DNA of 64,000 nucleotides. It comes from Ornithinimicrobium pekingense DSM 21552. GTDB taxonomy: Bacteria; Actinomycetota; Actinomycetes; Actinomycetales; Dermatophilaceae. Of this stretch, positions 16,542 to 63,091 are shown in pieces (position 1 is the stretch's first letter; each line of letters opens with the position of its first letter). A model generated the notes under the pieces. That model ran no database searches. It was not told the origin of the DNA and saw only the letters and a program-made list of their open reading frames with translations. Made by a program: the position numbers and the translations under genes. The DNA lies in assembly GCF_000421185.1 (NCBI RefSeq), contig NZ_ATWJ01000007.1:434001-498000 (forward strand). Reading direction: 5' to 3'.

Positions 16542-17427
16542 GCTCCCCGAGGTCGAGGTCGTCCGCCGGGGCCTGCAGGACCACGTCGTCGGCCGCACCG
16601 TGGAGCGCGCCGTCCTCACCGGAGCCCGCGTCGCCCGGCGCCACGGTGCCGGCCCCGCCGACCTGGCCGCGCGGGTCGCCGGCAGCCGCGTGCGCGCGGT
16701 CGACCGGCGCGGCAAGTACCTCTGGCTCGTCCTCGACCCGCCGCACGACGACCCCCAGGCGCTCGTCGTCCACCTGGGGATGAGCGGGCAGCTGCTGGTC
16801 GAGCCGCCCGACGCGCCGCGGGAGAAGCACCTGCACGCGGCCTTCGACTTCGCCGACGACGGGCCCCAGCTGCGGTTCGTCGACCAGCGCACCTTCGGCG
16901 GGCTGGCGCTGGCCGGGCTCGCGCCGGACCGGCACGGGCCGCGTGCGTACGGCATACCCGAACCGGTGCTGCACATCGCCCCCGACCCGCTCGAGCCCGC
17001 CTTCGACCGGGCCGCGACCGTGCGTCGGGTCAGGGCGAAGGACACCGAGCTCAAGCGGGTGCTCCTCGACCAGACGGTGGTCAGCGGAGTCGGCAACATC
17101 TACGCCGACGAGGCCCTGTGGCGGGCGGGGGTGCACGGCCGGCGGCGCGGGGCCGCCCTGACCGGACCGACCATCGGTCGCGTGCTGGACCACGCCGCGG
17201 ACGTCATGCGCGAGGCGCTGGGCCAGGGCGGCACGAGCTTCGACGCGCTCTACGTCAACGTCAACGGGGCCAGCGGCTACTTCGACCGGTCCTTGGCCGC
17301 CTACGGCCAGGCCGGCCGGCCGTGCCCCCGGTGCGGGACCGCGATCGTGCGCGAGGAGTTCATGAACCGCTCCTCCCACTTCTGCCCCCGCTGCCAGCCC
17401 CGTCCCCGGGTCCGCAGGCCCGGCTGA
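16534..17427 (+). CDS. mutM: Formamidopyrimidine-DNA glycosylase
   Basis: Bifunctional glycosylase/AP lyase that removes 8-oxoguanine. 297 residues. The GTG start is fixed by the catalytic N-terminus [13 protein letters not shown] (Pro2 nucleophile, Glu3). Other features are HLGMSGQLL, the helix-two-turn-helix block ([20 protein letters not shown]) and a C-terminal zinc finger with two CPRC pairs. The start lies inside the rnc coding end, showing translational coupling in the rpmF-rnc-mutM operon. Confidence 0.97.
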
Positions 17428-17456
17428 GGCCCCCCCGGCCCCGATACCCTCGGGCC

Positions 17457-17831
17457 ATGAGGATCAAGATGTGCAGCATCCACGTCCACGATCCGGCCGA
17501 GGCCTACCGCGTCTACACCGCCACGCTCGGCTTCACCGGGGTGCTGGCCGTCCCGGAGGCGGACCTGTTCATCGTCGCGGCGCCCCAGTCACCCGAGGTG
17601 GGGCTGCTGCTCGAGCCCAGCGACGACCCCGCGGCGGAGCGCTACCGGCGCACCCTCTACGCCGAGGGGCTCCCGGCCATCGTCCTGGGGGTCGGCGACG
17701 TCGCCGCCGAGCACGCGCGGCTCACCGGCCTCGGCGTCAGCTTCCGCGGGGAGCCGATGACCGACGCGTCGGGCACCAGCGCCGTCTTCGACGACGGCTG
17801 CGGCAACTACGTCCAGCTGCACCAGGACTGA
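17457..17831 (+). CDS. VOC-superfamily (glyoxalase/bleomycin resistance-like) protein
   Basis: 124-residue single-domain protein of the vicinal oxygen chelate fold: MRIKMCSIHVHDPAEAYRVY, then LGFTGVLAVPEADLF, GVGDVAAEHARLTGLGV, and the ending FDDGCGNYVQLHQD. Substrate unknown. TACCCT at 17445-17450 lies 6 bases before the ATG with no ribosome-binding site, consistent with its own leaderless promoter after mutM. Confidence 0.82.
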   Translation: MRIKMCSIHVHDPAEAYRVYTATLGFTGVLAVPEADLFIVAAPQSPEVGLLLEPSDDPAAERYRRTLYAEGLPAIVLGVGDVAAEHARLTGLGVSFRGEPMTDASGTSAVFDDGCGNYVQLHQD

Positions 17832-17843
17832 CGGCGCGGGCGG

Positions 17844-18863
17844 TCAGGTGCGCAGCGGCTCCTGCTCCTGCGGGTAGCGCACGCCCAGCTCGCGACGGAT
17901 GCTCTCCAGCACGGTCATGATCGCCACCGTGTCCTCGTGGGGGACCAGCGCAGACTCCACGAGCCCCTCGCGCAGGCACCGGTGCACCTCCTCGACCTCG
18001 TGCTCGAAGCCGCGGCGCTCGCCCGTCACGTGCTCCTCGTCCTCGCCGGTGCGGTGGACGGTGAACGACTCCGGGTCGTTGACCGGGCCGTGCACCTCGA
18101 TCCACCCCCGCGTGCCGCGCAGGACGGTCCGCGAACCGCCGTGGCTCTGGGAGTCGCAGACGACCTGCACGAGGACGCCGGAGTCGCTGTGCCACTGCAC
18201 GGCGACCTGGTCGTCCGCGCCGGTAGGCACGGTCGTGCCCAGCACCTGCACGTCGGTCGGGTGCCCGGCCAGCAGGTGCGCCAGGGTCACCGGGTAGATC
18301 CCGATGTCCATCAGCGCCCCGCCCCCGTTCTCGAGGTCGAAGAGCCGGTGCTTCTCGTCATACCCGAACGGCACCGTGAAGGCCGCGGAGAACGAGCGCA
18401 GCCTCCCGATGTCGCCGCCCGCGACCCGGGCGGTCAGCTCCCGCACGACGGGCAGGCAGCGGGTCCACATCGCCTCCATCGCGAAGAGCCCGCGCGCCCG
18501 CGCCCGGTCGAGCACCCGCTCGGTGTCGCGCACGGTCAGCGCCAGCGGCTTCTCCACCAGGACGTGCTTGCCGGCGTCGAGGCAGTCGAGGGCCTGGGCC
18601 GCGTGGTGGGGGTGCGTGGAGGAGATGTAGACGACGTCGACCTCGGGGTCGGCGCACAGCTCGGCATAGCTGCCGAAGGCGCGGGGTATGCCGTGCTCCG
18701 CGGCGAAGGCGCGGGCCCGGTCGGCGTCCCGCGCGGCGACGGCGACCACCTCACCCCCGCCCACCCGGGCCACCGTGCGGGCCATGGCGTGGGCGATGTC
18801 GCCGGCGGCCAGCAGGCCCCAGCGGATCGGGCGGTCAGGGACGGGCGCGTATGCCGTGCTCAC
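17844..18863 (-). CDS. Gfo/Idh/MocA-family oxidoreductase
   Basis: NAD(P)-dependent dehydrogenase of 339 residues. N-terminal Rossmann fold (GLLAAGDIAHAMARTV, VVAVAARDADRARAFA), the family EKPLALT motif in HVLVEKPLALTVRD with the conserved Lys, and the alpha/beta substrate domain with GGGALMDIGIYPV. Substrate probably a sugar, inositol or trans-dihydrodiol-type compound, but this cannot be decided from sequence. GTG start with TACGGT on the minus strand (18875-18870) 6 bases before it. Convergent with the VOC gene and divergent from acylphosphatase. Confidence 0.85.
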   Translation of the reverse strand: MSTAYAPVPDRPIRWGLLAAGDIAHAMARTVARVGGGEVVAVAARDADRARAFAAEHGIPRAFGSYAELCADPEVDVVYISSTHPHHAAQALDCLDAGKHVLVEKPLALTVRDTERVLDRARARGLFAMEAMWTRCLPVVRELTARVAGGDIGRLRSFSAAFTVPFGYDEKHRLFDLENGGGALMDIGIYPVTLAHLLAGHPTDVQVLGTTVPTGADDQVAVQWHSDSGVLVQVVCDSQSHGGSRTVLRGTRGWIEVHGPVNDPESFTVHRTGEDEEHVTGERRGFEHEVEEVHRCLREGLVESALVPHEDTVAIMTVLESIRRELGVRYPQEQEPLRT

Positions 18864-18869
18864 GGCTCC

Positions 18870-18879
18870 ACCGTAGTGT
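18870..18879. promoter_or_regulatory. Overlapping divergent -10 elements
   Basis: Only 23 bases separate two divergent start codons (GTG at 18863 minus, ATG at 18887 plus). Minus-strand TACGGT (18875-18870) is 6 bases from its GTG, and plus-strand TAGTGT (18874-18879) is 7 bases from its ATG. The two hexamers share the TA at 18874-18875. Confidence 0.55.
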
Positions 18880-18886
18880 CACCGCC

Positions 18887-19168: not shown

Positions 19169-19445
19169 GCGGGGCGCGCGCCCGCACGACAGTGTCGGGA
19201 AGGGTCGCCAGGGTCGTGGCCGCGAGGATCCGGGCGGCCGCGGCAGCGACGGGACGAGCGCTCGCTCACCACCCGCTTCCTCCCTCCGCCGGCGTACCCG
19301 CACCCGTCACCCCCGGCAGACCTTCGTGGCGGCCGCCGAGGCCCTGGGCAGGACTCCGGACCCGCCGCGGCCTGCGCCGGATCGAAGGACAGCACGGGTA
19401 GGGTGACCCGCATCACCCGATGCCGACCGTGAGAAGCCCGCCCGC

Positions 19446-22400
19446 GTGTACGTCAAGAGTCTGACCCTCAAGGGGTTCAAGTCGTTCGCCTCCGCGACGA
19501 CCATGCGCCTGGAGCCGGGGATCACGTGCATCGTCGGGCCCAACGGCTCGGGCAAGTCCAACGTCGTCGACGCGCTCGCCTGGGTGATGGGGGAGCAGGG
19601 GGCCAAGAGCCTGCGCGGCGGCAAGATGGAGGACGTCATCTTCGCCGGCACCTCCGGGCGTCAGCCCCTGGGCCGCGCCGAGGTGTCGATGACGATCGAC
19701 AACAGCGACGGCGCGCTGCCGATCGACTACACCGAGGTGACGATCACCCGCACCATGTTCCGCTCGGGCGGGTCGGAGTACGCCATCAACGGCACGTCCT
19801 GCCGGCTGCTCGACGTCCAGGAGCTGCTGTCCGACTCCGGCATCGGGCGGGAGATGCACGTCATCGTCGGGCAGGGCCAGCTCGACAGCGTCCTGCGGGC
19901 CACCCCGGAGGAACGGCGCGGCTTCATCGAGGAGGCGGCCGGCGTCCTCAAGCACCGCAAGCGCAAGGAGCGGGCCCTGCGCAAGCTGGAGACGATGGAG
20001 GGCAACCTCACCCGTCTGGCCGACCTGACCACCGAGATCCGCCGTCAGCTGGGGCCGCTGGGCCGGCAGGCGGAGACCGCCCGGCGGGCGGCCTCGATCC
20101 AGGCGGAGGTGCGCGACGCCCGGCTGCGGATCCTCGCCGACGACCTCGTCCAGCTGACCAGCGCGCTGGAGCAGGAGATCGCCGACGAGCAGGCGCTGGT
20201 CGCCCGGCGCACGGCGGTCCAGGAGGCGGTGGAGGCGGCCGACCGGTCCGTGGCAGAGCTCGAGCGGGAGCGTGCGGAGGCCGCGCCCGCGCTCACCGAG
20301 GTGCAGGACCGGTGGTACTCCCTGTCCTCGGCCCTGGAGCGGATGCGCGCCCTGCGCGACCTCGCCGGCGAAAGGGTCCGGCTGCTGGGGGCCGAGGAGG
20401 AGGAGCTGCGCGCCGAGGAGCGTGGGGGAGGGCGTCCGGGAGGTGCGCGCGACCCCGAGCAGCTGCGCGCGCAGGCCGAGCAGGTCCGTGCCGAGGAGTC
20501 GGCGCTGCTGGCCCGGGTCGGGGACCTGACGCGGGCGCTGGAGGACGCGGAGGAGGAGCGGGTCGCGGCCGAGCAGGCGCACGCCGAGGAGCAGAACCGC
20601 CTGCAGCGGCTCGCGCGTGCCGCGGCCGACCGGCGCGAGGGCCTGGCCCGGCTGGCCGGGCAGGTGGCTGCGCGGCGCTCGCGGATCGAGGCCGGCGAGG
20701 GGGAGATCCAGCGCCTGCAGGCCGGTGCCGCAGCCGTGCTCGAGCGCGCCGCGCGGGCGGAGCAGGAGTTCGCCGCCCTGGAGGGCACGGTCCTGGACGT
20801 CGAGGAGGGCGAGGAGGGCCTGGACGCCGAGCACGAGGCGGCCGAGGAGGCGCGGGTGACCGCCGAGGCCGAGGTGGTCCGGCTGGTCGAGGAGCTGCGC
20901 GCCGCGCAGGCCGACCAGGCCACCCTGCAGGCGCGCATCGAGGCGCTGTCGCTGAGCCTGCGACGCACCGACGGGGCCAGCGCGCTGCTCGCCGCCGAGG
21001 AGGTCACCGGCCTGCGCGGGACCCTCACCAGCCACGTCCACGTCGAGCCGGGGCGGGAGGCGGCCGTCGCCGCCGCCCTGGGCTGGGCCGGGGAGGCCCT
21101 CGTCACCGACGGCGTCGAGCCCGCCCGCCAGGCCCTGGGCTGGTTGCGGGAGCAGGACCAGGGCCGGGCCGGGCTGCTGGTCCCTGAGTCTGCCGTCGAC
21201 GTCGACCGCTCGGCCTGGCCGCAGCTGCCCGGGTATGCCGTGTGGGCCGCCGACACGGTCGGCGCCGAGGACCCCGGGCTGGTCCGCGCGGTCACCGGTC
21301 TGCTCGCCCGCGTCGCCCTCGTCGGGGACGCCGACGAGGCGGCCCGGCTCGTCGGTGAGGTGCCCGGGGTGACGGTGGTGACCGCCGACGGCGACGTCTA
21401 CGGGCCCGGATGGGCCCGCGGTGGCTCGAGCGCGGCCCCGTCCCTCATCGAGCTGCAGTCGGCCCTCGACGAGGCCCGGGCCGGCGCCGAGGCCGCGACG
21501 GCGCTCGCCGAGCGCCTCACCTTCGAGCTGAAGGGGGCCCGGACCGCGCTGGAGGAGGCCGAGGGCCGGGCGGACGCCGCGCTCGACGCCCTGCACGACT
21601 CCGACGCCCGGATGACCGCGGTGGCCGAGCAGCTCGCCCAGCTCGGGCAGACGATGCGGGCGGCCCGCTCCGAGCACGAGCGCACCACCGCTGCCGTCAC
21701 CACCGCCCAGCAGGGGCTGGAGGCCACCCGGGCCGAGCTGGCCGAGCTCGAGCAGCGGCTCGCCGACGCGGAGTCCACGGCCGCCGAGGCGGGGGAGACC
21801 GCCGAGCCCGACACCGGCGAGCGGGAGCGCCTGGCCGAGGCGGCTGCCCGTGCCCGCAGCGCCGAGACCGAGGCCCGGCTGGCCCTGCGAACCCAGGAGG
21901 AGCGGGCTCGCGCGCTGTCCGGGCGGGCCGAGGGCCTGGAGGCGGCAGCCCGCAACGAGCTGGCCGCCCGCGAGCGCGCCGCCCGGCGCAGGGCGCGCCG
22001 GGCCGAGGAGCGCCGCGTCGCGGACGCGGTGGCCACCGGTGCGGCATACCTCGCCCGGCGCGTCGAGCGGCTCGTGGCCGTCGCGGCGCAGGAGCGGGAG
22101 GCCGCGCGTGCGGAGCAGACCCGGCGCGACGAGCAGCTCGCCGGCGCCCGGGCCCGGGCCGCCGAGCTCGCCGCCGAGCTGCGCGACCTCACGGACTCCG
22201 TGCACGCCGACGAGATCGCCCGCGCCGAGCAGCGGCTGCGCATCGAGGCGCTGCAGACGCGCGCGATGGAGGAGCTCGGCGTCGACCCGGGCACCCTCGT
22301 GGAGGAGTACGGCCCGCACCTTCCCGTGCCCCACATCGCCGGGCCCGACGACGACCCCGACGACCTGCCGGAGCCCCACCCCTTCGTGCGCGACGTCCAG

Positions 22401-23174
22401 GACAAGCGGCTGCGCTCGGCGGAGCGCAAGCTGGCCCAGCTGGGGCGCGTCAACCCCCTCGCGCTGGAGGAGTTCGCGGCGCTGGAGGAACGCCATACCT
22501 TCCTCACCGAGCAGCTCGAGGACCTGCGCCGGTCCAAGGCCGACCTGCTCGAGATCGTCAAGGAGGTCGACGAGCGCGTCGAGCGGGTCTTCGCCGAGGC
22601 CTTCCACGACACCGCCGAGCAGTTCGAGCGGGTGTTCTCCCGGCTGTTCCCGGGCGGAGAGGGCCGCATCACCCTGACCGACCCCGGCAACATGCTCACC
22701 ACCGGCATCGAGGTCGAGGCCCGGCCCCCCGGCAAGAAGATCAAGCGCCTGTCGCTGCTGTCCGGCGGCGAACGGTCGCTGACCGCGGTCGCCCTGCTGG
22801 TCGCGATCTTCAAGGCCCGTCCCAGCCCCTTCTACATCATGGACGAGGTCGAGGCGGCGCTCGACGACACCAACCTCGGCCGGCTCATCACGCTCTTCGA
22901 GGAGCTGCGCGACTCTTCCCAGCTCATCGTCATCACTCACCAGAAGCGCACGATGGAGGTGGCCGACGCCCTCTACGGCGTGTCCATGCGCGGCGACGGG
23001 GTCACCACGGTCGTCAGCCAGCGGGTGCGCGACGTCGCGCCGGCCGGAGCCAGGGGACCGGGGGCCGGGCCCCTGGCCCCCGACGGTGACGGGTCGGGCG
23101 AGGGGACCGCGCCCGGGCCCGACCGGGCCGGCGAGGACGACCAGGTCCGCTCGCCGCAGGATGTCCACGCATGA
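19446..23174 (+). CDS. smc: Chromosome segregation protein SMC
   Basis: Condensin ATPase that organises and segregates the chromosome with ScpA and ScpB. 1242 residues. Walker A GPNGSGKSN near residue 33, a first coiled coil (about 170-500), a globular hinge (about 510-650, including LRGTLTSHVHVEPG and AVAAALGWAGEALV), a second Glu/Ala/Arg-rich coiled coil to about 1000, then signature LLSGGERSLTAVALL near 1104 and Walker B FYIMDEVEAALDD. GTG start; TAGGGT at 19399-19404 may be the -10. About 45 low-complexity residues follow the ATPase domain. The last bases overlap the next gene (ATGA). Confidence 0.97.
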   Translation: MYVKSLTLKGFKSFASATTMRLEPGITCIVGPNGSGKSNVVDALAWVMGEQGAKSLRGGKMEDVIFAGTSGRQPLGRAEVSMTIDNSDGALPIDYTEVTITRTMFRSGGSEYAINGTSCRLLDVQELLSDSGIGREMHVIVGQGQLDSVLRATPEERRGFIEEAAGVLKHRKRKERALRKLETMEGNLTRLADLTTEIRRQLGPLGRQAETARRAASIQAEVRDARLRILADDLVQLTSALEQEIADEQALVARRTAVQEAVEAADRSVAELERERAEAAPALTEVQDRWYSLSSALERMRALRDLAGERVRLLGAEEEELRAEERGGGRPGGARDPEQLRAQAEQVRAEESALLARVGDLTRALEDAEEERVAAEQAHAEEQNRLQRLARAAADRREGLARLAGQVAARRSRIEAGEGEIQRLQAGAAAVLERAARAEQEFAALEGTVLDVEEGEEGLDAEHEAAEEARVTAEAEVVRLVEELRAAQADQATLQARIEALSLSLRRTDGASALLAAEEVTGLRGTLTSHVHVEPGREAAVAAALGWAGEALVTDGVEPARQALGWLREQDQGRAGLLVPESAVDVDRSAWPQLPGYAVWAADTVGAEDPGLVRAVTGLLARVALVGDADEAARLVGEVPGVTVVTADGDVYGPGWARGGSSAAPSLIELQSALDEARAGAEAATALAERLTFELKGARTALEEAEGRADAALDALHDSDARMTAVAEQLAQLGQTMRAARSEHERTTAAVTTAQQGLEATRAELAELEQRLADAESTAAEAGETAEPDTGERERLAEAAARARSAETEARLALRTQEERARALSGRAEGLEAAARNELAARERAARRRARRAEERRVADAVATGAAYLARRVERLVAVAAQEREAARAEQTRRDEQLAGARARAAELAAELRDLTDSVHADEIARAEQRLRIEALQTRAMEELGVDPGTLVEEYGPHLPVPHIAGPDDDPDDLPEPHPFVRDVQDKRLRSAERKLAQLGRVNPLALEEFAALEERHTFLTEQLEDLRRSKADLLEIVKEVDERVERVFAEAFHDTAEQFERVFSRLFPGGEGRITLTDPGNMLTTGIEVEARPPGKKIKRLSLLSGGERSLTAVALLVAIFKARPSPFYIMDEVEAALDDTNLGRLITLFEELRDSSQLIVITHQKRTMEVADALYGVSMRGDGVTTVVSQRVRDVAPAGARGPGAGPLAPDGDGSGEGTAPGPDRAGEDDQVRSPQDVHA

Positions 23175-26159: not shown

Positions 26160-27083
26160 TCACCCGGTGACGAAGGAGCTGTCCGGGGCGTTGCGCAGCT
26201 CGGTCGGGTCACCCAGCGCCCACTCGACCGCACGGGTCCCCGCCACGCCCAGCGGGCCGGCGACCGACCGCAGCGCCACCGCCTCGACGCCGCGCAGCGG
26301 TCGCGGCGGCCGAAGGCCGAGCATCTCCCGCGCGTAGCCGGGCAGCAGCTCCACGGCGCCGGCGGCCAGCATCCAGAAGCCCGGGCGTGCTGCCCACGGC
26401 AGCGGCGGCTCCGCGAGCAGGAAGCGGACGACGTCCAGGGCGCCCCGGCTGGTCTCCAGCTCGGGCCGGTAGGAGGCCAGTGCACGCTCGAGCTCGGCGA
26501 CCGTGCGCGGCGGCTCCGGGACACCCAGGCGGGTGGCGACGTAGGCGGCCTGGTCGACGTAGGTGTCCGCCTCGGCCGGGGTGAGCGGGGTGCGGGAGTA
26601 GCGCTGGTGGGCGACCAGGAAGCTGTCGATCTCGGCGATGTGCACCCACTCCAGCAGGTGCGGGTCCGTCGCAGCGTAGGGACGCCCGTCACGCGTCGTC
26701 CCGGACACGGTCTCGTGCAGGCGGTTGATCCGGTCGATCATCCGCTCGGCGGCCTCGACGGGGCCGAAGGTGGTCATGGCCAGGAACTCGCTGGTGCGCT
26801 GCAGCCGGCCCCACGGGTCGTCGCGGTAGCCGGAGTGCTCGCCCACACCCGCCATCGCCAAGGGGTGCAGGGCCTGGAGCAGGAGGGCCCGCATGCCGCC
26901 GGCATACATCGCCGCGTGTCCCTGCACCCGGCAGACGGGGTCGGTGGGCGCGAACCGGCGCTCGCCGGGGGCCAGCCAGATCGCGTGGGCACGACGCTCC
27001 GCGTCGGGGCCGGCGACGCGGTCGCGCAGGGCCGTGGCCAGCCGGCTGCGCAGGGAGGCGGTCAGGGCGCTGGGGGAGGGCAC
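26160..27083 (-). CDS. Oxygenase MpaB family protein (DUF2236)
   Basis: 307-residue helical protein of the MpaB/latex-oxygenase group, whose characterised members use haem b. Typical elements are HAIWLAPGERRFAPTDPVCRV, of which the WL..G.RRF part is diagnostic, then GHAAMYAGGMRALLLQALHP, and EWVHIAEIDSFLVAHQRY, with the conserved histidines expected to bind haem or act in catalysis. Start GTG at 27083 is supported by CATACT (minus strand) 6 bases before it. It is inserted between ftsY and ffh, divergent from ffh. The reaction is unknown. Confidence 0.82.
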   Translation of the reverse strand: MPSPSALTASLRSRLATALRDRVAGPDAERRAHAIWLAPGERRFAPTDPVCRVQGHAAMYAGGMRALLLQALHPLAMAGVGEHSGYRDDPWGRLQRTSEFLAMTTFGPVEAAERMIDRINRLHETVSGTTRDGRPYAATDPHLLEWVHIAEIDSFLVAHQRYSRTPLTPAEADTYVDQAAYVATRLGVPEPPRTVAELERALASYRPELETSRGALDVVRFLLAEPPLPWAARPGFWMLAAGAVELLPGYAREMLGLRPPRPLRGVEAVALRSVAGPLGVAGTRAVEWALGDPTELRNAPDSSFVTG

Positions 27084-32580: not shown

Positions 32581-33684
32581 ATGAGCGCGCCGGTGCTGCA
32601 CGTGCGAGGCACGGTCCTGGTCGGGCCGCAGGAGGTGCTCGACGAGATCTGGGTGGTCGACGGGGTCGTCAGCCTGACGCCGCCGGCCGGGGGAGAGGTC
32701 GAGACGATCGAGGGGTATGCCGTGCCCGGCCTCGTGGACGCGCACTGCCACGTCGGGCTCGAGGCGCACGGGGCCGTCGAGGACGCCCGCGCCGAGGAGC
32801 ACGCGCTCGCCGACCGGGACGCCGGCGCGCTCCTGCTGCGCGACGCCGGCAGCCCGCTGGACACCCGCTGGGTCCAGGAGCGGGAGGACCTGCCGCGGCT
32901 CATCCGTGCGGGACGCCACATCGCCCGGACCCGCCGCTACCTGCGCAACTTCGCCTGGGAGATCGAGCCCGAGGACCTCGTGGAGTACGTCCGCCAGGAG
33001 GCGCGCAGCGGCGACGGCTGGGTCAAGCTGGTCGGGGACTGGATCGACCGGGAGACCGGTGACCTGGGGGTGTGCTGGCCGGTGGACGTGCTGACCGAGG
33101 CCATCGCGGCCGCCCACGAGGAGGGCGCGCGGGTGACCGCCCACTGCTTCGGCGAGCAGTCGCTGGTCGACTTCGCCGCGGCCGGCACCGACTGCATCGA
33201 GCACGCGACGGGTCTGACCGACGACACGATCGAGATCTTCGCCCGCCAGCAGATCGCCATCGTGCCGACCCTGGTCAACATCGACAACTTCCCGGCGTTC
33301 GCCGAGGCGGGGCGGGGCAAGTTTCCCACCTACGCCGACCACATGATGGACCTGTACGAGCGGCGTTACGAGACGGTCGCCAAGGCCCGGGAGGCGGGAG
33401 TGCCGGTCTACGTGGGCACCGACGCCGGCGGGCAGCTGCCGCACGGCCTGGTGGCCCGGGAGGTCGAGGCGCTCACCCGGACCGGCATGTCCCCGCTCGA
33501 GGCGATCGGCGCGGCGACGTGGGGGGCTCGCGCGTGGCTGGGACGCCCCGGCATCGCCGAGGGGGAGTCGGCGGACCTCGTGGTCTACCGCGACGACCCG
33601 CGCGAGGACGTCCGGACGATGGCCGACCCCCACCGGGTCATCCTGCGGGGGGTCGCCCGCGAGCGCTCGGGAGCGCGGGGCTGA
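32581..33684 (+). CDS. Amidohydrolase-superfamily protein
   Basis: 367-residue metal-dependent hydrolase, imidazolonepropionase/prolidase-like branch. PGLVDAHCHVGLEA near residue 52 gives the HxH metal pair. Further ligands are in WVKLVGDW, TAHCFGEQS and CIEHATGL, and the final Asp is in YVGTDAGGQLPHG. Substrate unknown. Ribosome-binding site GAGGAA 7 bases before the ATG; TAGCCT at about 32537 may be its -10. Transcribed towards aceB, with a shared terminator. Confidence 0.87.
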   Translation: MSAPVLHVRGTVLVGPQEVLDEIWVVDGVVSLTPPAGGEVETIEGYAVPGLVDAHCHVGLEAHGAVEDARAEEHALADRDAGALLLRDAGSPLDTRWVQEREDLPRLIRAGRHIARTRRYLRNFAWEIEPEDLVEYVRQEARSGDGWVKLVGDWIDRETGDLGVCWPVDVLTEAIAAAHEEGARVTAHCFGEQSLVDFAAAGTDCIEHATGLTDDTIEIFARQQIAIVPTLVNIDNFPAFAEAGRGKFPTYADHMMDLYERRYETVAKAREAGVPVYVGTDAGGQLPHGLVAREVEALTRTGMSPLEAIGAATWGARAWLGRPGIAEGESADLVVYRDDPREDVRTMADPHRVILRGVARERSGARG

Positions 33685-36840: not shown

Positions 36841-38334
36841 ATGACGATCGTCCACGACCGGGTGCTGCCGTTCTCGCCCACGCCGCACCTCGAGGGCACG
36901 GCGACAGCGGGCGGCGGCACCGACGCCGTCGCCCTCGGCCGGCGCCTGCGCCACCACCGCCGCGCCGCCGGCCTGACGCTGGCCCAGCTGGCCGCCCGCG
37001 TCGGTCTGTCCGCCTCCGCCCTCTCGCTCATCGAGAACGGTCGCCGCGAGCCCCGGGTGTCCACGCTGTCCGGGCTGGCGGCGGCCCTCGGCGTCGACGT
37101 CCAGCAGCTGCTCGACGGGGGCCCGCCGAGCAGGCGCGCGGCGCTGGAGGTGCGGTGGGAGCGCGCGCAGCGCTCGCCCGGCTTCGAGAGCCTGGGGATC
37201 CCTGAGGTGCGGGTGGGTCCGGGCCTGCCGGACGACGCCCTCGAGGCCCTGGTCGGCCTCTACGAGACCGTGGTCGGCGTCCAGCAGCAGCGGGCTGCCA
37301 CCCCCGAGTTCGCGCGGGCGGCCAACGCCGAGCTGCGCCGGCTCATGCGTGAGGCGGACAACTACTTCCCCGAGATCGAGGCGCGCGCCGCCGAGCTGGT
37401 GCGGGCGGTGGACCACGGGCAGGGGCCCGTGACGCGGGAGGCGGTCAACCGCATCGCGCGGCACGCCGGCTTCGAGATCGAGCCGGTGGCGGACCTGCCC
37501 GCCTCGACCCGCACCGTGACCGACCTGGAGAACCGCCGTATCTACGTCCCGGTGCGCGGCGGGCACGACCTGCGGGCCACCGCGCTGCAGGCGCTCGGCC
37601 ACGTGGTGCTCGAGCACCAGGCGCCCCGTGACTACGCCGAGTTCCTCGCCCAGCGGGTCGAGATCAACTACTTCGCCGCCGCGGTGCTGCTGCCGGAGGC
37701 CAGCGTGGTGCCTTTCCTGCAGCGCGCCAAGGCGGCACGCGACATCGCCCTGGAGGACCTGCGCGACGCGTATGCCGTCTCCTACGAGACGGCCGCGCAC
37801 CGCTTCTGCAACCTCGCGACCCGCCACCTCGAGCTGCCCGTGCACTTCATGCGCACGAGCGCCGACGGGGTGATCTACAAGGCCTACGAGAACGACGGCG
37901 TGCGCTTCCCGATGGACGCGACGGGGGCGATCGAGGGGGCACGGGTGTGCCGCTCCTGGACGGCGCGCGTGGTCTTCGACCAGCCGACGGGAGAGGTCTA
38001 CCACCAGTACACCGACACCGGGCGGGGGACGTTCTGGTGCACGGCGGTCGCGGAGCAGACGCCCAACGGGCGCTTCTCCGTCAGCATGGGCGTGCCGTTC
38101 GACCAGGTGCGCTGGATGCGCGGACGTGACACCACGCAGCGCCGGGTGTCGCGGTGCCCTGACCCGCGCTGCTGCACCGAGCCGCCCCCGGCGCTGGCGC
38201 GCCGGTGGAAGGGCAAGGTGTGGCCCAGCGCCCGGGCGCACTCGCACCTGCTCGCCGTGATGCCCCCCGGCGTCTTCCCGGGGGTGGACGACACCGAGGT
38301 CCTGGGCTTCGTGGCCGAGCACGCCCCGGACTGA
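36841..38334 (+). CDS. ramB: RamB-type regulator of acetate/glyoxylate metabolism (XRE + IrrE-like)
   Basis: 497-residue transcription factor of the short-chain fatty acyl regulator family; RamB controls aceA/aceB in corynebacteria and mycobacteria. A helix-turn-helix (residues 32-90, [19 protein letters not shown] and IENGRREPR) is followed by an IrrE/DUF955-like region near 200-330. There the usual HExxH is replaced by [10 protein letters not shown] (about 250-260), so the protease zinc site looks incomplete. The C-terminal third has a cysteine cluster [11 protein letters not shown]. Divergent position next to aceA supports direct control of the shunt; the sequence does not show whether it represses or activates. 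Confidence 0.85.
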
Positions 38335-41564: not shown

Positions 41565-41615
41565 GCCGCGATCGTATGCCGCACAGCGCCGCGGACCGCA
41601 CGGGCGGGCGTCGAC

Positions 41616-44252: not shown

Positions 44253-44630
44253 ATGGGGAGGGGTATGCCGTGGCGCGAGGCCCGCGCGGTGGGTGACCGG
44301 GGCGAGGACCTGGCGTGTGCGCACCTGGAGCGGATGGGCTGGCAGCTGGTGGAGCGCAACTGGCGCTGCCGCCAGGGGGAGATCGACGTGGTGGCCAGGG
44401 ACCCCGACGGGGAGCTCGTCTTCTGCGAGGTCAAGACCCGCCGCTCGGCCCGCATGGGGCTGCCGGTGGAGGCGGTGGGGCACGCCAAGGCCAGGCGGCT
44501 GCGCGTCCTTGCCTGGGCGTGGCTGGCCGCGCACGAGGAGCGGCCGGGCCGTTTCCGCATCGACCTGATCGGCGTGCTCACGGTCCCCGGCCGGGCCCCC
44601 CGGCTCGAGCACCTCGAGGCCGTGGCCTGA
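44253..44630 (+). CDS. yraN: UPF0102 / YraN endonuclease-like protein
   Basis: 125-residue protein with a restriction endonuclease-like core: GDRGEDLACAHLERMGWQLV, then the acidic RQGEIDVVARD and LVFCEVKTRRS, matching the D-(E/Q)xK type nuclease motif. Function not firmly established; often beside comM. ATG at 44253 is preferred because GAGGAGGGA lies 3 to 11 bases before it; ATG 44265 is an alternative. The stop and the comM start overlap by one base (TGATG). Confidence 0.88.
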   Translation: MGRGMPWREARAVGDRGEDLACAHLERMGWQLVERNWRCRQGEIDVVARDPDGELVFCEVKTRRSARMGLPVEAVGHAKARRLRVLAWAWLAAHEERPGRFRIDLIGVLTVPGRAPRLEHLEAVA

Positions 44631-49966: not shown

Positions 49967-50529
49967 CGGTCGACCGGCCCGGACCGGGACGCCCGCTGCA
50001 CGCGGGTCCCCGCGACCCGGTCGTGCAGTCCACGGCCACCGACAAGCGACGGGACCATGCAGGCTGCGGCGAGCACCAGCGACAGGACGACGAGGGTCAT
50101 CCCGATCGGCAGCTGCACCTCGAGGACGGCACGACTCACCCCGAGATGGGCCACCTGCCACGGCAGGGCCTTGACGACGTTGCGCGCGAAGACCTGGCCG
50201 GTCCGGGCCGGTCCGCCCGTGGCGCCCGCGACCACCAGACCCGCCCACCGCTTGCCCAGGCTCGCGGAACGCGGTGAGGACTCCGTCACAAAGAGGTAGA
50301 GGACGTAGGGCACGACCGTCACCAGGCTGATGGCGAGGTCCGCGGCGAGCACCCTACGCGGACCGGGAGCACCAGCCGGTCCGGGGACGTCCAGCAGCGG
50401 GCGGACGAGCACACCCAGGAGGGTCAGCAGGGCCAGCCAGCCTGCCACCACCAGCCAGTCACCCAGCCACGAGCGCACCCGGGCGGCCGGCGAGGGGCGC
50501 CACGTGGTGAGGGCGGGCGCGGACGGCAT
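49963..50529 (-). CDS. RDD-family membrane protein
   Basis: 188 residues with about three to four hydrophobic segments (near 22-45, 62-82 and 137-160). The RDD pattern includes the Arg and Asp in [13 protein letters not shown] near the N-terminus, and the C-terminal [14 protein letters not shown] ending. Transport function is suggested for the family only. ATG 50529 is used because an upstream GTG would run into the aminotransferase gene. It overlaps xerC by 4 bases at the other end. Confidence 0.83.
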
Positions 50530-50542
50530 ACCCCCGAGGCTG

Positions 50543-51709
50543 TCACGCACGCCCGAGGGCGTGCAGGCGGCGCGCCGCCTCGCGGAGCACCTCCTCCTTC
50601 TTGCAGAACGCGAAGCGCACGAGGGAGGCGACCGGCGCCGGGTCCTCGACGAAGACCGAGACCGGGACGCCGACCACGCCCAGCTCCTCGGGCAGACGGC
50701 GGCAGAAGTCGACGGCGTCGCTCACCCCGTGCGGGGCGAAGTCGGCGATGACGAAGTAGGTGCCCTGGCACGGTGACACCGGAACCCCCACGTCGCTCAG
50801 CGCCTCGACGAGGACGTCCCGCTTGCCCTGCAGCTCCTGGGCGAACCCGGTGAAGAACGACTCGGGCAGACGCAGGCCGTGGGCGACCGCCGGCTGGACG
50901 TGGGTCACGCCGACGAAGGTGAGGAACTGCTTGACCGCCGCCACCGCGTCGACCAGCTCGGCGGGGCCGGTCACCCACCCGGTCTTCCACCCGGTGAGGG
51001 AGAAGGTCTTGCCGACCGAGGAGATCGTCAGCGTCCGCTCGGCCATCCCGGGCAGCGTCGAGAAGGGGACGTGGGAGAGCCCGTCGAAGACGAGGTGCTC
51101 GTAGACCTCGTCGGAGACCACCCACAGCCCCTCGCGCTCGCGGACGATCTCGGCCAGCCCCTCCAGCTCCGCACGGCTGAAGACCTTGCCGGTGGGGTTG
51201 TGCGGGGTGTTGATCATCAGCACCCGGGTGCGGTCGGTGACGGCGTCCCGCACCGCGTCGAGGTCCAGGTGCAGGTCGGGGAAGCGGAGCGAGACGGCCC
51301 GGCGCGTCGCGCCGGCCAGCGCGATGGAGGCGTCGTAGGAGTCGTAGCTCGGCTCGATGACGACCACCTCGTCGCCCGGCCCGGCGAGGGCGAGGAGCGC
51401 CGCGGCGATGCCCTCCGTGGCACCCACGGTCACCAGGACCTGGGCGTCGGGGTCGAGAGGTATGCCGTAGAAGCGCCGCTGGTGCTCGGCCACGGCCTCG
51501 CGCAGCACGGGCAGCCCGCGCGCCGGGGCGTACTGGTTGAGGCCCTCCTGCAGGCCGTGCGCGGCCACCTGCAGCATCTCCGCGGGGCCGTCGGTGTCCG
51601 GGAAGCCCTGCCCGAGGTTCACCGCGTCGAAGCGCAGCGCCCGCTGCGTCATCTCGGCGAAGACGGTCGTGCCGAAGGGCTGCATGCGGGGGACGAGCGG
51701 GGAGGTCAT
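50543..51709 (-). CDS. Class I PLP-dependent aminotransferase
   Basis: 388-residue fold-type I transaminase. Contains VNLGQGFPDTDGPAEMLQVA, MINTPHNPTGKVFS, and the PLP-lysine block SVGKTFSLTGWKTGW. The closest characterised types are N-succinyldiaminopimelate aminotransferase (DapC) and kynurenine/methionine aminotransferases; sequence alone does not decide. TACGGT on the minus strand (51722-51717) lies 7 bases before the ATG, suggesting leaderless expression. Precedes the RDD and xerC genes on the same strand; divergent from rpsB. Confidence 0.88.
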   Translation of the reverse strand: MTSPLVPRMQPFGTTVFAEMTQRALRFDAVNLGQGFPDTDGPAEMLQVAAHGLQEGLNQYAPARGLPVLREAVAEHQRRFYGIPLDPDAQVLVTVGATEGIAAALLALAGPGDEVVVIEPSYDSYDASIALAGATRRAVSLRFPDLHLDLDAVRDAVTDRTRVLMINTPHNPTGKVFSRAELEGLAEIVREREGLWVVSDEVYEHLVFDGLSHVPFSTLPGMAERTLTISSVGKTFSLTGWKTGWVTGPAELVDAVAAVKQFLTFVGVTHVQPAVAHGLRLPESFFTGFAQELQGKRDVLVEALSDVGVPVSPCQGTYFVIADFAPHGVSDAVDFCRRLPEELGVVGVPVSVFVEDPAPVASLVRFAFCKKEEVLREAARRLHALGRA

Positions 51710-51736
51710 GTGCGCCACCGTAGCGAGGGAGGGCGA

Positions 51737-51767
51737 TTGGGTCGCAGCGGCTCGGCTGACGTAAGAT
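51737..51767 (+). promoter_or_regulatory. Promoter of rpsB-tsf
   Basis: TTGGGT (51737-51742), 19-base spacer, TAAGAT (51762-51767). This would give a leader of about 180 bases before the rpsB ATG at 51955, enough for the autoregulatory S2-binding structure known in other bacteria, which was not identified here. Confidence 0.65.
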
Positions 51768-51954
51768 GTGCCGCACGTGTGGTGTGCCTGCCCTCCGGCC
51801 CGCCGGGGAGAAGGTCGCCGCACGAATTCGCGCCCGGGCCAGGTCGGCTCGCTCGACGGCGTCCTCCGCAGTCCCGCCACCGTGAGGGTGACGGGTGGAG
51901 GGTGTCCCCGGGCCAGGACCCAACTGCACCTTCCACAGAAAGCGAGACCACGGC

Positions 51955-54020: not shown

Positions 54021-54023
54021 GCG

Positions 54024-56454: not shown

Positions 56455-56468
56455 GCGGCTCGAGATCG

Positions 56469-57368: not shown

Positions 57369-57414
57369 GACCACGGGGACGCCGACCCGGCCGGAGGATG
57401 GGACACTGGCAGGG

Positions 57415-58608
57415 ATGAGCACCGAGCTGCCGACCCCGACCACCCGCCCCGAGCCCGGCAGGCTGACCTTCAGCGCGCCCCGGCGCGGCAAGCCGCCGAC
57501 CCACCTGGCCGACCTCGACCCGGCGGGCCGCAAGGCGTGGGCCGCGGAGCTCGGGGTGCCCGGCTTCCGCGCCGACCAGGTCTCCCGTCACTACTTCGAG
57601 CGGTTGACCACCGACCCCGAGCAGATGACCGACCTGCTGCGCACCGGCCGTGACGAGCTCGTGTCCACGCTGCTGCCGCCGCTGCTGACCCCCGTGCGCA
57701 CCCTGTCCACCGACGGAGGAGCCACCCTCAAGCAGGTCCACCGCCTCCACGACGGCGCCCTCGTGGAGTCGGTGCTCATGCGCTACCCCGGACGCGTGAC
57801 CATGTGCATCTCCAGCCAGGCCGGCTGCGGGATGAACTGCCCGTTCTGCGCCACCGGGCAGCAGGGCCTGACCCGCAACCTGTCCACGGCAGAGATCGTC
57901 GAGCAGGTCATCGCCGCGGCCCGGGCCCTGCGCCACGGTGACCTGCAGGCGGGCACGGCCGTGGAGCACGGCCACGACCCCGCGGCCGAGACCACCGTCG
58001 AGCAGGCGCTGCGGGTGAGCAACGTGGTCTTCATGGGGATGGGTGAGGCCCTGGCCAACTACAAGGCCGCCGTGGGGGCGATCCGCCGCCTGGTGGAGCG
58101 ACCGCCCGCCGGGCTGGGCATGTCCGCGCGCGGCGTGACGATGTCGACCGTGGGGCTGGTGCCGGCCATCGACAAGCTGGCGGGCGAGGGCATCCCGGTG
58201 ACCCTGGCCCTGAGCCTGCACGCCCCCGACGACGAGCTCCGCGACGAGTTGGTGCCGATCAACACCCGGTGGAAGGTCGACGAGGCGCTCGACGCCGCCC
58301 GGCGCTACTTCGACACGACCGGTCGCCGGGTCAGCATCGAGTACGCCCTCATCCGCGACATCAACGACCACGCCTGGCGGGCCGACCTGCTGGGGGAGAA
58401 GCTCAACGCGCGCGGCCGCGGGTGGGTCCACGTCAACCCCATCCCGCTCAACCCGACGCCGGGCAGCAAGTGGACCGCCTCCCGCCCCGGCGTCGAGCAG
58501 CAGTTCGTCGAGCGGCTGCGGGCGCACGGCATACCCACGACCGTGCGTGACACCCGCGGCTCGGAGATCGACGGCGCCTGCGGGCAGCTGGCCGCCGTCA
58601 CCGCCTAG
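57415..58608 (+). CDS. rlmN: 23S rRNA (adenine(2503)-C2) / tRNA methyltransferase, radical SAM
   Basis: Methylates A2503 of 23S rRNA and A37 of some tRNAs. 397 residues. The radical-SAM iron-sulfur motif is in [16 protein letters not shown] (CxxxCxxC), with [10 protein letters not shown] for SAM binding and [16 protein letters not shown]. The C-terminal catalytic cysteine lies in DGACGQL. The loop between [10 protein letters not shown] and [11 protein letters not shown] is longer than in E. coli. Its stop overlaps the convergent DinB gene by 4 bases. Confidence 0.96.
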
Positions 58609-59408: not shown

Positions 59409-60626
59409 TCAGCCGGGAGTGACGACGTCCGCCGCCTCGTCGACCGTGTCGACGAGGTGGAGGGAGCGCGCCATCGGGCGGTCCCTGCCCAGCGCCTGCA
59501 GGAGCTGCCACACGGGAAGGTGGGAGGTCCAGTGCTCGCGTCCCACCAGCACCAGCGGGGTCGGCGGCGTGCCGGGGCCCCCGGCCTCCACCTCGTAGTA
59601 GAGCCTGGTCGCCATCTGGAACACCTCCTGGACCGTCCCGGCCGCGCCCGGGAGGACCACGAGGCCGTGGCGGGCGTGCGCGAGGAGCAGGTCCTCGCGC
59701 AGGGCGTTGGAGAAGAACTTGGCGACGAGCTGGGCGAACGCGTTCGGGGGCTCGTGGCCGTAGTACCAGGTGGGGATCCCGACGCTGCGCAGGCGGCGTG
59801 GCCCGTGCGTCGAGGCACGCGTGCGCAGCGCCGGACGGACCCAGCCGGCGATGTCCGGGGCGAAGTCGGGGACGGTGGCCACCTCCTCCAGCGCCGCGGC
59901 CAGCACCTCCTCGTCCGGGGCCCAGGCGCCCAGGTTGGCGGCCTCCATGGCGCCGGGACCGCCGCCGGTGACGACCAGGGCACCGGACCCGGCGATCCGG
60001 TGGCCCAGGAGCGCGGCGGCGGCGAAGTCCTCCGTGCCGCGCCGCAGCGCGTGCCCGCCCATGACGCCGACCACGCGGCGTCCCTCCAGCAGGCCCGCGA
60101 GCGCGTCCGACATCGCGTCGTCGTGGACGGCCCGCAGCGCGGTGACGTAGGCGTCGTGGCGCACGGTCGCGTCCTCGAACCACCGGTAGGCCCTGGCGTC
60201 GACCGTCGCGGCGTAGCCGTCCTCCTCGATCCCGGCGTACAGCTCCTGGGGGGTGTAGAGCCGGGCCCGGTAGGGATCCACCGGGGCCCGCGGGTCGGTC
60301 GGGAAGATGATCGCGCCGTGGCGGCGCAGGTGGTCCTCGACCTCCTGGTCCAGGTCGCCCCCGAGGACGACGATGTCGCCCAGGTCGTCCCGGCCCAGGA
60401 GCAGCTCGCGGTCCCGGGTCAGGTCCAGACCCTGCAGGCGCAGCGCGTGCAGCGGCTCGGGCGAGGCCAGCAGCCGCGCCCACGTCGTGCGGTCCTCCAC
60501 CTCCCGGACGGGCACGGTCCCGACGCTCTCGGCCCGGGGGTAGCGCACCTCGGGGCCCTCCTGCCTGCCGGACCCCACCCGGGCGGAGGAGACACGGGCG
60601 CTGACGGGGTGCTGGGCGTGCGGCAT
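59409..60626 (-). CDS. LOG-family Rossmann-fold protein (PpnN-like size)
   Basis: 405 residues, far longer than the usual 180-250 of LOG/TIGR00730 proteins. The nucleotide-binding GGGPGAMEAAN lies near residue 225 and LPGAAGTVQEVF near 325, the PGGxGTxxE motif with Gly to Ala. The N-terminal about 180 residues (MSDALAGLLEGRRVVGVMGG is at their end) form an added domain. Size and layout recall PpnN, a nucleotide 5'-monophosphate nucleosidase. TAGGGT on the minus strand (60638-60633) lies 6 bases before the ATG, suggesting leaderless expression. 222 bases without a recognised gene separate it from the DinB gene. Confidence 0.82.
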   Translation of the reverse strand: MPHAQHPVSARVSSARVGSGRQEGPEVRYPRAESVGTVPVREVEDRTTWARLLASPEPLHALRLQGLDLTRDRELLLGRDDLGDIVVLGGDLDQEVEDHLRRHGAIIFPTDPRAPVDPYRARLYTPQELYAGIEEDGYAATVDARAYRWFEDATVRHDAYVTALRAVHDDAMSDALAGLLEGRRVVGVMGGHALRRGTEDFAAAALLGHRIAGSGALVVTGGGPGAMEAANLGAWAPDEEVLAAALEEVATVPDFAPDIAGWVRPALRTRASTHGPRRLRSVGIPTWYYGHEPPNAFAQLVAKFFSNALREDLLLAHARHGLVVLPGAAGTVQEVFQMATRLYYEVEAGGPGTPPTPLVLVGREHWTSHLPVWQLLQALGRDRPMARSLHLVDTVDEAADVVTPG

Positions 60627-60757
60627 ACCCAGACCCTATGCAGCGGGCCGCCCACCGGTCGGCGGGCGGTCGCCGCCCGTCGCACGATCCGCGCCGCCGG
60701 TCGGGCGGTCCTGCTCCCTGCCGCCCGCGGCCGGGCCCGCGGGTGTTGACTAGGGCC

Positions 60758-62674
60758 ATGAGCAACGACGCCCAGCAGAGCTACCGCGACACCGTGGCCG
60801 CGAGCATCGCCGACCCGGCCGGCTTCTGGGGGGAGGCCGCCGGGCTGGTCGACTGGATCACGCCGCCCCGGCAGGTCCTCGACGACAGCGACCCGCCGTT
60901 CTACCGGTGGTTTCCCGACGGCCGTCTCAACGTGTGCTTCAACGCCCTCGACCGGCACGTGGTGCACGGGCGCGCCGACCAGACCGCGCTCGTCTACGAC
61001 AGCCCCGTCACCGGGACGCAGCGGAGCTACACCTACGCCCAGCTGCTCGACCTCGTGGCCCGCTTCGGCGGGGTGCTGCGCGACCTCGGCGTCGGCAAGG
61101 GCGACCGGGTGGTCATTTACATGCCGATGATCCCCGAGGCGGTGGTCGCGATGCTGGCGTGCGCGCGCATCGGGGCGGTCCACTCCGTCGTCTTCGGCGG
61201 GTTCGCCCCCGCCGAGCTGGCCGCCCGGATCGAGGACGCCGAGCCCACCGTCGTCGTCTCGGCGTCGTGCGGGATCGAGCCGACGCGCACGATCGCCTAC
61301 AAGCCGATGCTCGACGAGGCGATCCGGCGCTCGGCGCACAAGCCCGAGCACTGCGTGATCGTCCAGCGCGAGCAGCAGACCTGCGAGCTGGGCGAGCGCG
61401 ACCTGGACTGGGCCCGGGTCATGCACCCCGACGCCGCCGCCCCGGCGGCGTGCGTGCCGGTCGCCGCGACCGACCCCCTCTACGTGCTCTACACGTCCGG
61501 GACCACCGGCAAGCCCAAGGGCATCGTGCGCGACAGCGGGGGGTATGCCGTCGCCCTGCGGTGGTCGATGACCAACCTCTACGGCGTCCGGCCGGGGGAG
61601 GCGTGGCTGTGCGGCTCCGACGTGGGCTGGGTCGTCGGGCACTCCTACATCGTCTACGCGCCCCTGCTCACCGGGGCGACCACCATCCTGTTCGAGGGCA
61701 AGCCCGTCGGCACGCCGGACGCCGGCACCTACTGGCGCCTGGTCGACCAGTACGACGCCGTGGCCGCGTTCACCGCGCCGACGGCGATCCGCGCGATCAA
61801 GAAGCAGGACCCGCGCGCGGAGCTGGTCAAGGAGCACGACCTGTCCTCGCTGCGCACGCTCTTCCTCGCCGGCGAGCGCCTCGACCCCGACACCTGGCAG
61901 TGGGCCACCGACCACCTCGGCGTGCCGGTCATCGACAACTGGTGGCAGACCGAGACGGGCTGGCCGATCGCGACCAACCCCGTCGGGCTGGCCCTGTTCG
62001 ACATCAAGCCCGGCTCCCCGACCCTGCCGACGGTGGGCTACGACGTGCGGGTCCTCGACGAGAGGGGCGAGGAGGTGGCCCCGGGCACGGAGGGGGCCAT
62101 CTGCATCAGGCTGCCGCTGCCTCCGGGGACGCTGCCGACGCTGTGGCGCGACGACGACCGCTTCGTCGCCTCCTACCTGTCGGCGCACCAGGGTTACTAC
62201 CTGACCGGGGACGGTGGCTACGTCGACGAGGACGGCTACCTCTACGTGATGGGGCGCACCGACGACGTCCTCAACGTGGCCGGTCACCGGCTCTCGACGG
62301 GCTCGCTGGAGGAGGCCCTCGCAGGACACCCCTCCGTGGCCGAGTGCGCCGTCATCGGCGTGCGCGACGCGCTCAAGGGGCAGGTGCCCCGGGCCCTGGT
62401 GGTGCTCAAGGCGGGCATCGACCTGGACCAGGCGCAGACCGACGCCCTCGAGGCCGAGCTGGTCCAGCGGGTCCGCGACGAGGTGGGGCCGGTGGCGGCC
62501 CTGCGCCAGGTCGACGTGGTCGACGCCCTGCCCAAGACCCGCTCGGGCAAGATCCTGCGCAAGACGATGCGCCAGATCGCCGACGGGCAGGAGGCCCAGG
62601 TCCCGTCGACGATCGAGGACGTCGGGGTGCTCGACGCGCTCGCCCCCGTCCTGCGTGCGGGGTCGCCCTCCTGA
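60758..62674 (+). CDS. prpE: Propionyl-CoA synthetase / acyl-CoA synthetase
   Basis: AMP-forming acyl-CoA ligase activating propionate (or acetate). 638 residues. AMP-binding motif YTSGTTGKPKGIVRD near residue 250, the PrpE-typical LAGERLDPDTWQWA, acceptor block DNWWQTETGWPIA, GRTDDVLNVAGHRLSTG, and the C-terminal catalytic Lys in TRSGKILRKTMR. The N-terminus DPAGFWGEAAGLVDW matches PrpE more than Acs. Stands alone; a PrpCBD cluster is not in the window. Would feed propionyl-CoA into central metabolism. Confidence 0.9.
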   Translation: MSNDAQQSYRDTVAASIADPAGFWGEAAGLVDWITPPRQVLDDSDPPFYRWFPDGRLNVCFNALDRHVVHGRADQTALVYDSPVTGTQRSYTYAQLLDLVARFGGVLRDLGVGKGDRVVIYMPMIPEAVVAMLACARIGAVHSVVFGGFAPAELAARIEDAEPTVVVSASCGIEPTRTIAYKPMLDEAIRRSAHKPEHCVIVQREQQTCELGERDLDWARVMHPDAAAPAACVPVAATDPLYVLYTSGTTGKPKGIVRDSGGYAVALRWSMTNLYGVRPGEAWLCGSDVGWVVGHSYIVYAPLLTGATTILFEGKPVGTPDAGTYWRLVDQYDAVAAFTAPTAIRAIKKQDPRAELVKEHDLSSLRTLFLAGERLDPDTWQWATDHLGVPVIDNWWQTETGWPIATNPVGLALFDIKPGSPTLPTVGYDVRVLDERGEEVAPGTEGAICIRLPLPPGTLPTLWRDDDRFVASYLSAHQGYYLTGDGGYVDEDGYLYVMGRTDDVLNVAGHRLSTGSLEEALAGHPSVAECAVIGVRDALKGQVPRALVVLKAGIDLDQAQTDALEAELVQRVRDEVGPVAALRQVDVVDALPKTRSGKILRKTMRQIADGQEAQVPSTIEDVGVLDALAPVLRAGSPS

Positions 62675-62785
62675 GCCTCCCGCGCCTGCCTGTGGATAAC
62701 CGGCGCGCCGGCTGAGGCGCCTTTCCTACCCTTCTCCGAAACAACGCTCCGGCCGCCGGCCGGGAGCATCGGGGAGGGAGGACCC

Positions 62786-63091
62786 ATGGGGTATGCCGTG
62801 CGGGCGGACCCGGACGCCCTCGTCGGGGGCGCGAGCCGGCTCGTGGTGGCGGCGCAGACCCTCGACGCCGTGGCGGGCCGGGTGGTCGCGCTGTGCGCCG
62901 CGGCAGGGTCGGCCGTGGCCGGCACCGAGCTGGCCCTCGCGCTGGAGGAGACGGGGCGGGAGACCGCGCGTGCCGTCGCCGGAGCGGCCGGCGGGCTGAC
63001 CGACCTGGGCACCGGCACACAGCTGGCGGCCGAGGGCTACCTGCGGGTGGAGCGGGCGCCGGAGGGCGACCCGGACGTGGGCGCGCGATGA
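62786..63091 (+). CDS. Small helical protein, probable WXG100/ESX-like partner
   Basis: 101 residues predicted as helical with heptad-like Ala/Leu spacing (ASRLVVAAQTLDAVAGRVVA). It lacks an obvious WXG motif, but size, helical content and its 4-base overlap (ATGA) with the WXG-containing gene resemble paired small secreted proteins of type VII systems. GGAGGGAGGA lies 4 bases before the ATG, a strong ribosome-binding site. The start region contains GGTATGCC (62790-62797). Family assignment is tentative. Confidence 0.5.
   Translation: MGYAVRADPDALVGGASRLVVAAQTLDAVAGRVVALCAAAGSAVAGTELALALEETGRETARAVAGAAGGLTDLGTGTQLAAEGYLRVERAPEGDPDVGAR

Follow-up and report, generated by a model that had tools for sequence, protein, structure and literature searches.

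A possible uptake-sequence-like word dispersed through the genomes of Ornithinimicrobium pekingense and its relatives

The uptake signal sequence (USS) of Pasteurellaceae is a word of about 9 bases that occurs about once per kb; FtsK-orienting polar sequences (KOPS), Chi sites and architecture-imparting sequences are short words dispersed over the chromosome with a strand bias about the origin. The present analysis concerns a word, GTATGCCGT, with its core GTATGCCG, that recurs in a 64,000-nt stretch of Ornithinimicrobium pekingense DSM 21552 (contig NZ_ATWJ01000007.1, positions 434,001 to 498,000; hereafter the window) and in the genomes of its relatives. An uptake sequence, absent from the candidate mechanisms of a preliminary description of the window, fits the pattern best. 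The closest described counterpart is the DNA uptake sequence (DUS) of Neisseriaceae, reported in 943 to 5,918 copies (PMC3630211), and, according to a 2025 source, DNA is known to be discriminated in such a way only in the families Neisseriaceae and Pasteurellaceae (PMC12616744). Another highly frequent word, the cyanobacterial highly iterated palindrome 1 (HIP1), was described as low in some genomes and as linked to orphan methyltransferases (PMC4390886).

Distribution of the word

All 12 copies of GTATGCCGT listed for the window in the preliminary description, 9 on the plus strand and 3 on the minus strand, were verified. The numbers expected on both strands from Markov models of orders 1 to 5 were 0.10, 0.12, 0.20, 0.63, and 1.52, respectively, the high orders already including sub-words of GTATGCCGT itself; beside these values, the earlier hand estimate of 0.3 copies was fair. 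The claim that almost every TAT or ATA of the window stood in GTATG or CATAC was overstated, since 41 of 61 did so, with about 14 expected. The whole genome (3.85 Mb, 15 contigs) contained 588 copies of GTATGCCGT, 295 forward and 293 reverse, versus 4 copies of the reversed word, and 1,021 copies of the core GTATGCCG, which is not self-complementary. The 12 window copies are a sample of this genome-wide signature.

Enrichment in GTATGCCGT was observed in 29 of 30 congeners, with 103 to 884 copies (two genomes near 105), and only 9 copies were found in the remaining one, G022. The core was then counted in 149 genomes representing 53 genera of the family. Among the 131 genomes at least 90% complete, 70 had more than 150 copies per Mb (maximum 1,125), 46 had fewer than 30, and 15 lay between; the 18 left out of this set as less than 90% complete were G088, G089, G090, G091, G093, G114, G130, G143, G144, G145, G147, G148, G149, G153, G165, G166, G175, and G181. 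The 70 motif-rich complete genomes carried 625 to 4,724 copies each, which match the copy numbers of DUS (943 to 5,918), and the highest density of all was found outside the 131-genome set, in G153 (4,205 copies in 3.1 Mb). Motif-rich genera also had motif-free members, namely G128, with 19 copies versus 1,062 and 3,681 in its sisters, and G181 (89% complete), with 37 copies versus 1,251 to 1,660.

The nearest named relative by the SMC protein of the window was Serinicoccus kebangsaanensis (79%). Five of 80 named loci of about 23.6 kb around smc had at least 11 copies of GTATGCCG: S. kebangsaanensis with 11, Terrabacter tumescens with 14, Flexivirga caeni with 17, and two metagenome-derived genomes with 14 and 15. 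None of the remaining 75 had more than 2, and two Janibacter species and one Phycicoccus had none. In the NCBI taxonomy, Serinicoccus belongs to Ornithinimicrobiaceae and Terrabacter to Intrasporangiaceae, both of Micrococcales; the family of 149 genomes thus appears to cover both NCBI families. In the other families of the order (362 of 396 genomes), no comparable enrichment in GTATGCCG was evident from a table judged by eye, the top densities being about 80 per Mb. The densest genomes outside the family were G380, with 177 copies of GTATGCCG versus 135 of a control word, and G485, with 118 versus 47.

In a ComEC tree covering 20 chosen genomes, half of which carried the word, 7 changes of state were counted, at least 5 of which were forced by well supported branches, and the states clustered no better than shuffled labels. 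The simplest reading is an ancestral system lost many times; horizontal gain is a less simple alternative.

Strictness, conservation and codon choice

The flanks of GTATGCCG were genus-specific in the six motif-bearing genera sampled, two of which were alike. The top word was GGTATGCCGT(G) in the own genus of the window, GTATGCCGTG in G047, CGTATGCCGC in both G037 and G041, and CGTATGCCGCTG in G045, while G034 had two, GGTATGCCG and GTATGCCGA; top-word counts for G022, G031, and G036 revealed no such over-represented word. The core itself was strict. In 81 kb of G037, the exact core was present in 110 copies, 43 times the order-2 expectation, and its 24 one-mismatch neighbours totalled 65 versus 66.8 expected. 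Base 6 of the core, and partly bases 7 and 8, may vary in G010, G034, and G041. The longest consensus, about 20 bases, was that of G045, CCGTATGCCGCTG[AG]GCT..., for which 13 of 29 sites were intergenic with 4.6 expected, more than in the other genera sampled. Two further features were noted in G034: several motif copies were exactly 63 bases apart, suggesting a tandem repeat that bears the word, and ATCTGCGGAC was also over-represented (15 versus 0.3 expected).

Comparison of relatives, as proposed in the preliminary description, revealed a DNA-level signal kept between species. In orthologous regions of 17 to 20 kb around rlmN from 21 species, the core was preserved in 846 of the 1,613 cells aligned between motif-bearing species, the cells not being independent, versus 31% for composition-matched 8-mers. 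Towards the motif-free G022, it was kept in 0 of 83 cells (control, 25 to 26%), and towards the low-copy G020 in 1 of 49 (control, 17 to 18%). Core density was 0.44 per kb in DNA aligned to at least three other species and 0.19 per kb in DNA aligned to at most two (p = 0.0012, with sites treated as independent, over about 377 kb from 19 species in the single region around rlmN). In G002, G003, G008, and G021, rlmN matched in two or more pieces, perhaps owing to sequencing frameshifts.

Codon choice was scored as the share of TAT at Tyr-Ala positions in the frame nnG-TAY-GCC-G, each stretch being counted once and under its own genome. In the full context, TAT was used at 68 of 73 positions in G010, 53 of 56 in the loci of 17 other congeners, 33 of 36 in G037, 32 of 33 in G034, 25 of 25 in G041, and 19 of 21 in G047, the five numbered genomes representing five genera. 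Where no alanine followed, the corresponding shares were 116/1638, 146/1325, 26/375, 158/513, 182/411, and 10/240. Positions with GCC and one flank broken were intermediate, with 35/84, 23/75, 4/11, 4/18, 11/18, and 0/6 in the same order. The own genome used TAT at 7 of 13 positions in the full context, 1 of 17 with one flank broken, and 16 of 355 without alanine, and three motif-free sets used it at none of 26 full-context positions (0/11 in the motif-free congener, 0/10, and 0/5). It is strongly supported that codon use does not account for GTATGCCGT, as had been argued from the window, and that the word acts at the DNA level. It is present on both strands, is conserved, and overrides codon choice, the override being centred on the full motif context.

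Placement of the copies

The 9:3 strand bias noted in the window was within chance (binomial p = 0.15) and was not borne out by the 295:293 distribution over the genome. In the complete congener G010, in which dnaA is at position 654 and the cumulative skew turns at about 1.4 to 1.6 Mb of 3.48 Mb, twenty 20-kb stretches, divided at the midpoint, contained 91 leading and 96 lagging copies of the core (p = 0.77), and 19 of the 20 stretches contained GTATGCCGT. The lack of leading-strand bias speaks against KOPS, Chi, and architecture-imparting words, and the oriented signals suggested in the preliminary description are contradicted. No regular spacing was found, the placement in the window and in five genomes being indistinguishable from random. 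Except in G045, sites outside called genes occurred at the chance rate or somewhat above. The occurrence of GTATGCCGT on both gene strands and in several codon phases held for the window, but even use did not, as tolerable phases were favoured; both gene strands and preferred phases were likewise observed in the sets other than G045.

Table 1. Copies of GTATGCCGT and further copies of its core in the 64-kb window
Element	Position	Strand	Location	Exact core in aligned congeners
GTATGCCGT	16949..16957	-	within mutM/fpg-like gene (16534-17427 +), antisense	
GTATGCCGT	18686..18694	+	within GFO/IDH/MocA oxidoreductase gene (17844-18863 -), antisense	
GTATGCCGT	18849..18857	+	start of GFO/IDH/MocA oxidoreductase gene (17844-18863 -), antisense	
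GTATGCCGT	21233..21241	+	within smc (19446-23174 +), sense	
core-only GTATGCCG, next base C	22042..22049	-	within smc, antisense	
core-only GTATGCCG, next base G	26900..26907	-		
GTATGCCGT	32715..32723	+	within amidohydrolase gene (32581-33684 +), sense	
GTATGCCGT	37770..37778	+	within helix-turn-helix (HTH)/M78 regulator gene (36841-38334 +), sense	
core-only GTATGCCG, next base C	41574..41581	+		
GTATGCCGT	44263..44271	+	outside called open reading frames (ORFs); next called ORF from 44315	
GTATGCCGT	50523..50531	-	directly downstream of aminotransferase gene (50543-51880 -)	9/10
GTATGCCGT	51460..51468	+	within aminotransferase gene (50543-51880 -), antisense	10/17
GTATGCCGT	58526..58534	-	within rlmN (57415-58608 +), antisense	3/20
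core-only GTATGCCG, next base C	60621..60628	-		2/11
GTATGCCGT	61543..61551	+	within acetyl-CoA synthetase-like gene (60638-62674 +), sense	
GTATGCCGT	62791..62799	+	near start of short called ORF (62786-63091 +)	2/3

At the site in the acetyl-CoA synthetase-like gene (Table 1), GTATGCCG was present in 12 of 15 aligned congeners, and CTACGCCG, with the synonymous TAC, was present in the motif-free G022 and one other. Two other features of the window were a mild over-representation of TGCGCGA (62 versus 17; 278 versus 111 in G010) and a short inverted repeat at 1415-1450, formed by GGGGTAT on both strands nearby (TAT at 1423 on the minus and 1436 on the plus strand), with no exact motif pair.

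Possible role and comparison with known systems

The reading rated most probable, on account of its likeness to DUS (strict word, copy number, tolerant positions, dialects, and spread over a family with lacking members), is that GTATGCCG with its genus-specific flanks, here GGTATGCCGT[G], may be an uptake-sequence-like word, for which the chances are considered evenly balanced. The transformation machinery (pilus, ComEA, or ComEC) would include a DNA receptor, at the surface or in the membrane, that prefers double-stranded DNA bearing the word on either strand, so that DNA of kin would be preferentially taken up and recombined; the uptake bias would drive and keep copies wherever coding sequence tolerates them, and the word would decay where specificity is lost. 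The reader of the word would then be a DNA-uptake receptor. The genome of O. pekingense possesses comEA-comEC, with hits to the models for ComEA and for ComEC/Rec2, the latter under the NCBIfam equivalog cut-off for ComEC/Rec2 and above the Pfam cut-off for Competence. It also possesses Tad-type genes, including, on contig C9 (L258:9671-16768), a Flp-type Tad cluster adjoining ftsZ and encoding a TadZ-like protein, TadA, two T2SSF proteins, and a Flp pilin. T2SSF was found in 146 of the 149 family genomes, and only 5 had PilM_2, a marker of the type IVa pilus. Micrococcus luteus, an actinobacterium, was reported to transform through Flp pili and ComEA/EC, a gene combination described as frequent in actinobacteria (PMC4322843).

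Several observations weigh against an uptake role. ComEC was present in 145 of the 149 genomes, with and without the word, and homologues of comEA and comEC in open frame were found in all 10 motif-free genomes examined; an alignment of ComEA from 10 motif-bearing and 10 motif-free genomes displayed no separating feature visible by eye. In 75 chosen genomes, the TadZ-like protein of the ftsZ-linked cluster was independent of the word, with a strong match in the motif-free G022 and none in the motif-bearing G010 and G034. No receptor emerged from these comparisons. The only association found was with T2SSF: 0 of 70 motif-rich complete genomes and 7 of 46 motif-free ones had at most two hits, or 0 of 26 versus 4 of 18 by genus (p = 0.023, phylogeny ignored). 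The contrast was weaker when all 149 genomes, including incomplete ones, were considered (4 of 81 versus 9 of 50, p = 0.031, from hand-read tables), the motif-rich genomes with only two hits being G090, G091, G093, and G145, all less than 90% complete. This link is weak, and ancestry may account for it. Only a few tight inverted pairs of the word, which are common in Neisseria, were counted (the G010 set including two stretches that overlapped others); inverted pairs as terminators were rejected for the same reason. Within genes, an excess of the sense orientation was observed in three of seven sets (96:64 in G010, 23:7 in G047, and 74:44 in the congener loci), which is ascribed, as a conjecture, to codon tolerance. 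Finally, one search of the open-access literature on the genus names and competence yielded no experiment.

Among other readings, sites of a nucleoid-associated protein and a word linked to DNA modification are the main rivals. An unoriented site bound by a nucleoid-associated or chromosome-organising protein, with selection for chromosome coverage, would agree with the absence of strand or replichore bias, with GTATGCCGT in 19 of 20 stretches of G010, and with conservation between species, and patchy loss could follow the loss of a non-essential protein. Such a site is nevertheless considered rather unlikely, as the spacing in the window and in five genomes is indistinguishable from random and as strict sites in their thousands, differing in dialect between genera, would be unusual for a nucleoid protein. 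A word resembling HIP1 and connected with a DNA methyltransferase, or with another modification or defence system, is likewise unlikely, because targets of this kind are not normally enriched 20- to 40-fold and because GTATGCCG, unlike HIP1, is no palindrome. What speaks for it is the parallel with HIP1, which is also highly frequent and low in some genomes and which, in cyanobacteria, has linked orphan methyltransferases (PMC4390886).

A further reading is a Chi-like signal for a nuclease of the RecBCD, AddAB, or AdnAB type. A strict, short, dispersed word confined to one family would resemble Chi words, but these run in the direction of replication and are much less enriched, whereas the copies here have no leading-strand bias (91 versus 96 in G010, 295:293 in the own genome), and this explanation is very improbable. 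Least credible is a bias of mutation or repair in the absence of selection, or a by-product of high G+C and codon use. Although TAT is rare overall, which makes any word containing it conspicuous, and TAT was elevated in some genomes even with one flank broken (35/84 in G010), such an origin is already contradicted by the exactness of the 8-base unit, whose neighbours were at background in G037, by conservation between species, by an override of codon choice that centres on the full context, and by the absence of the word from the congener G022, with a G+C content of about 70 to 73%.

If the word does serve DNA uptake, it would be the first such case in Actinomycetota and in Gram-positive bacteria, and a comparable signature shared by dozens of actinobacterial genera would mean a third origin of such systems, this time in monoderm bacteria. 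The fuller proposal is held more tentatively, at somewhat less than an even chance: these bacteria may form a third family with sequence-specific uptake, the first Gram-positive one, independent of Neisseriaceae and Pasteurellaceae, in which GTATGCCG and its dialects mark the DNA of kin, uptake proceeds through Tad and Com proteins without a classical type IVa pilus, and specificity has been lost repeatedly. The matches listed from the open-access literature, exclusive of subscription papers and preprints, included no report of the GTATGCCG word or of an actinobacterial uptake sequence. Presence, absence, and dialect change would provide natural replicates for finding the receptor. Even with another role, a strict, codon-overriding word that is repeatedly missing among relatives, also within genera, represents an unexplained genome-scale force.

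DUS uses both strands, as does the word described here, which, unlike KOPS, Chi, and architecture-imparting sequences, has no strand bias (295:293; 91:96). The palindromic HIP1 has linked methyltransferases, whereas GTATGCCG is asymmetric. The word differs from USS in that its hosts are Gram-positive, its sequence is unrelated, and its receptor is hypothetical; USS has an extended form, eUSS (PMC12616744), and the consensus of about 20 bases in G045 is likewise extended. The differences from DUS are another word in another phylum, PilM_2 in only 5 of 149 genomes, few inverted pairs, and an uptake function that is proposed here by analogy. In the genomic respects tested, the word resembles DUS, and on this likeness it is a candidate uptake sequence: as described for DUS, it is short, present in thousands of copies, and composed of a conserved core with dialects, its intragenic copies are common at permissive positions, and relatives within the family lack it (PMC3630211).

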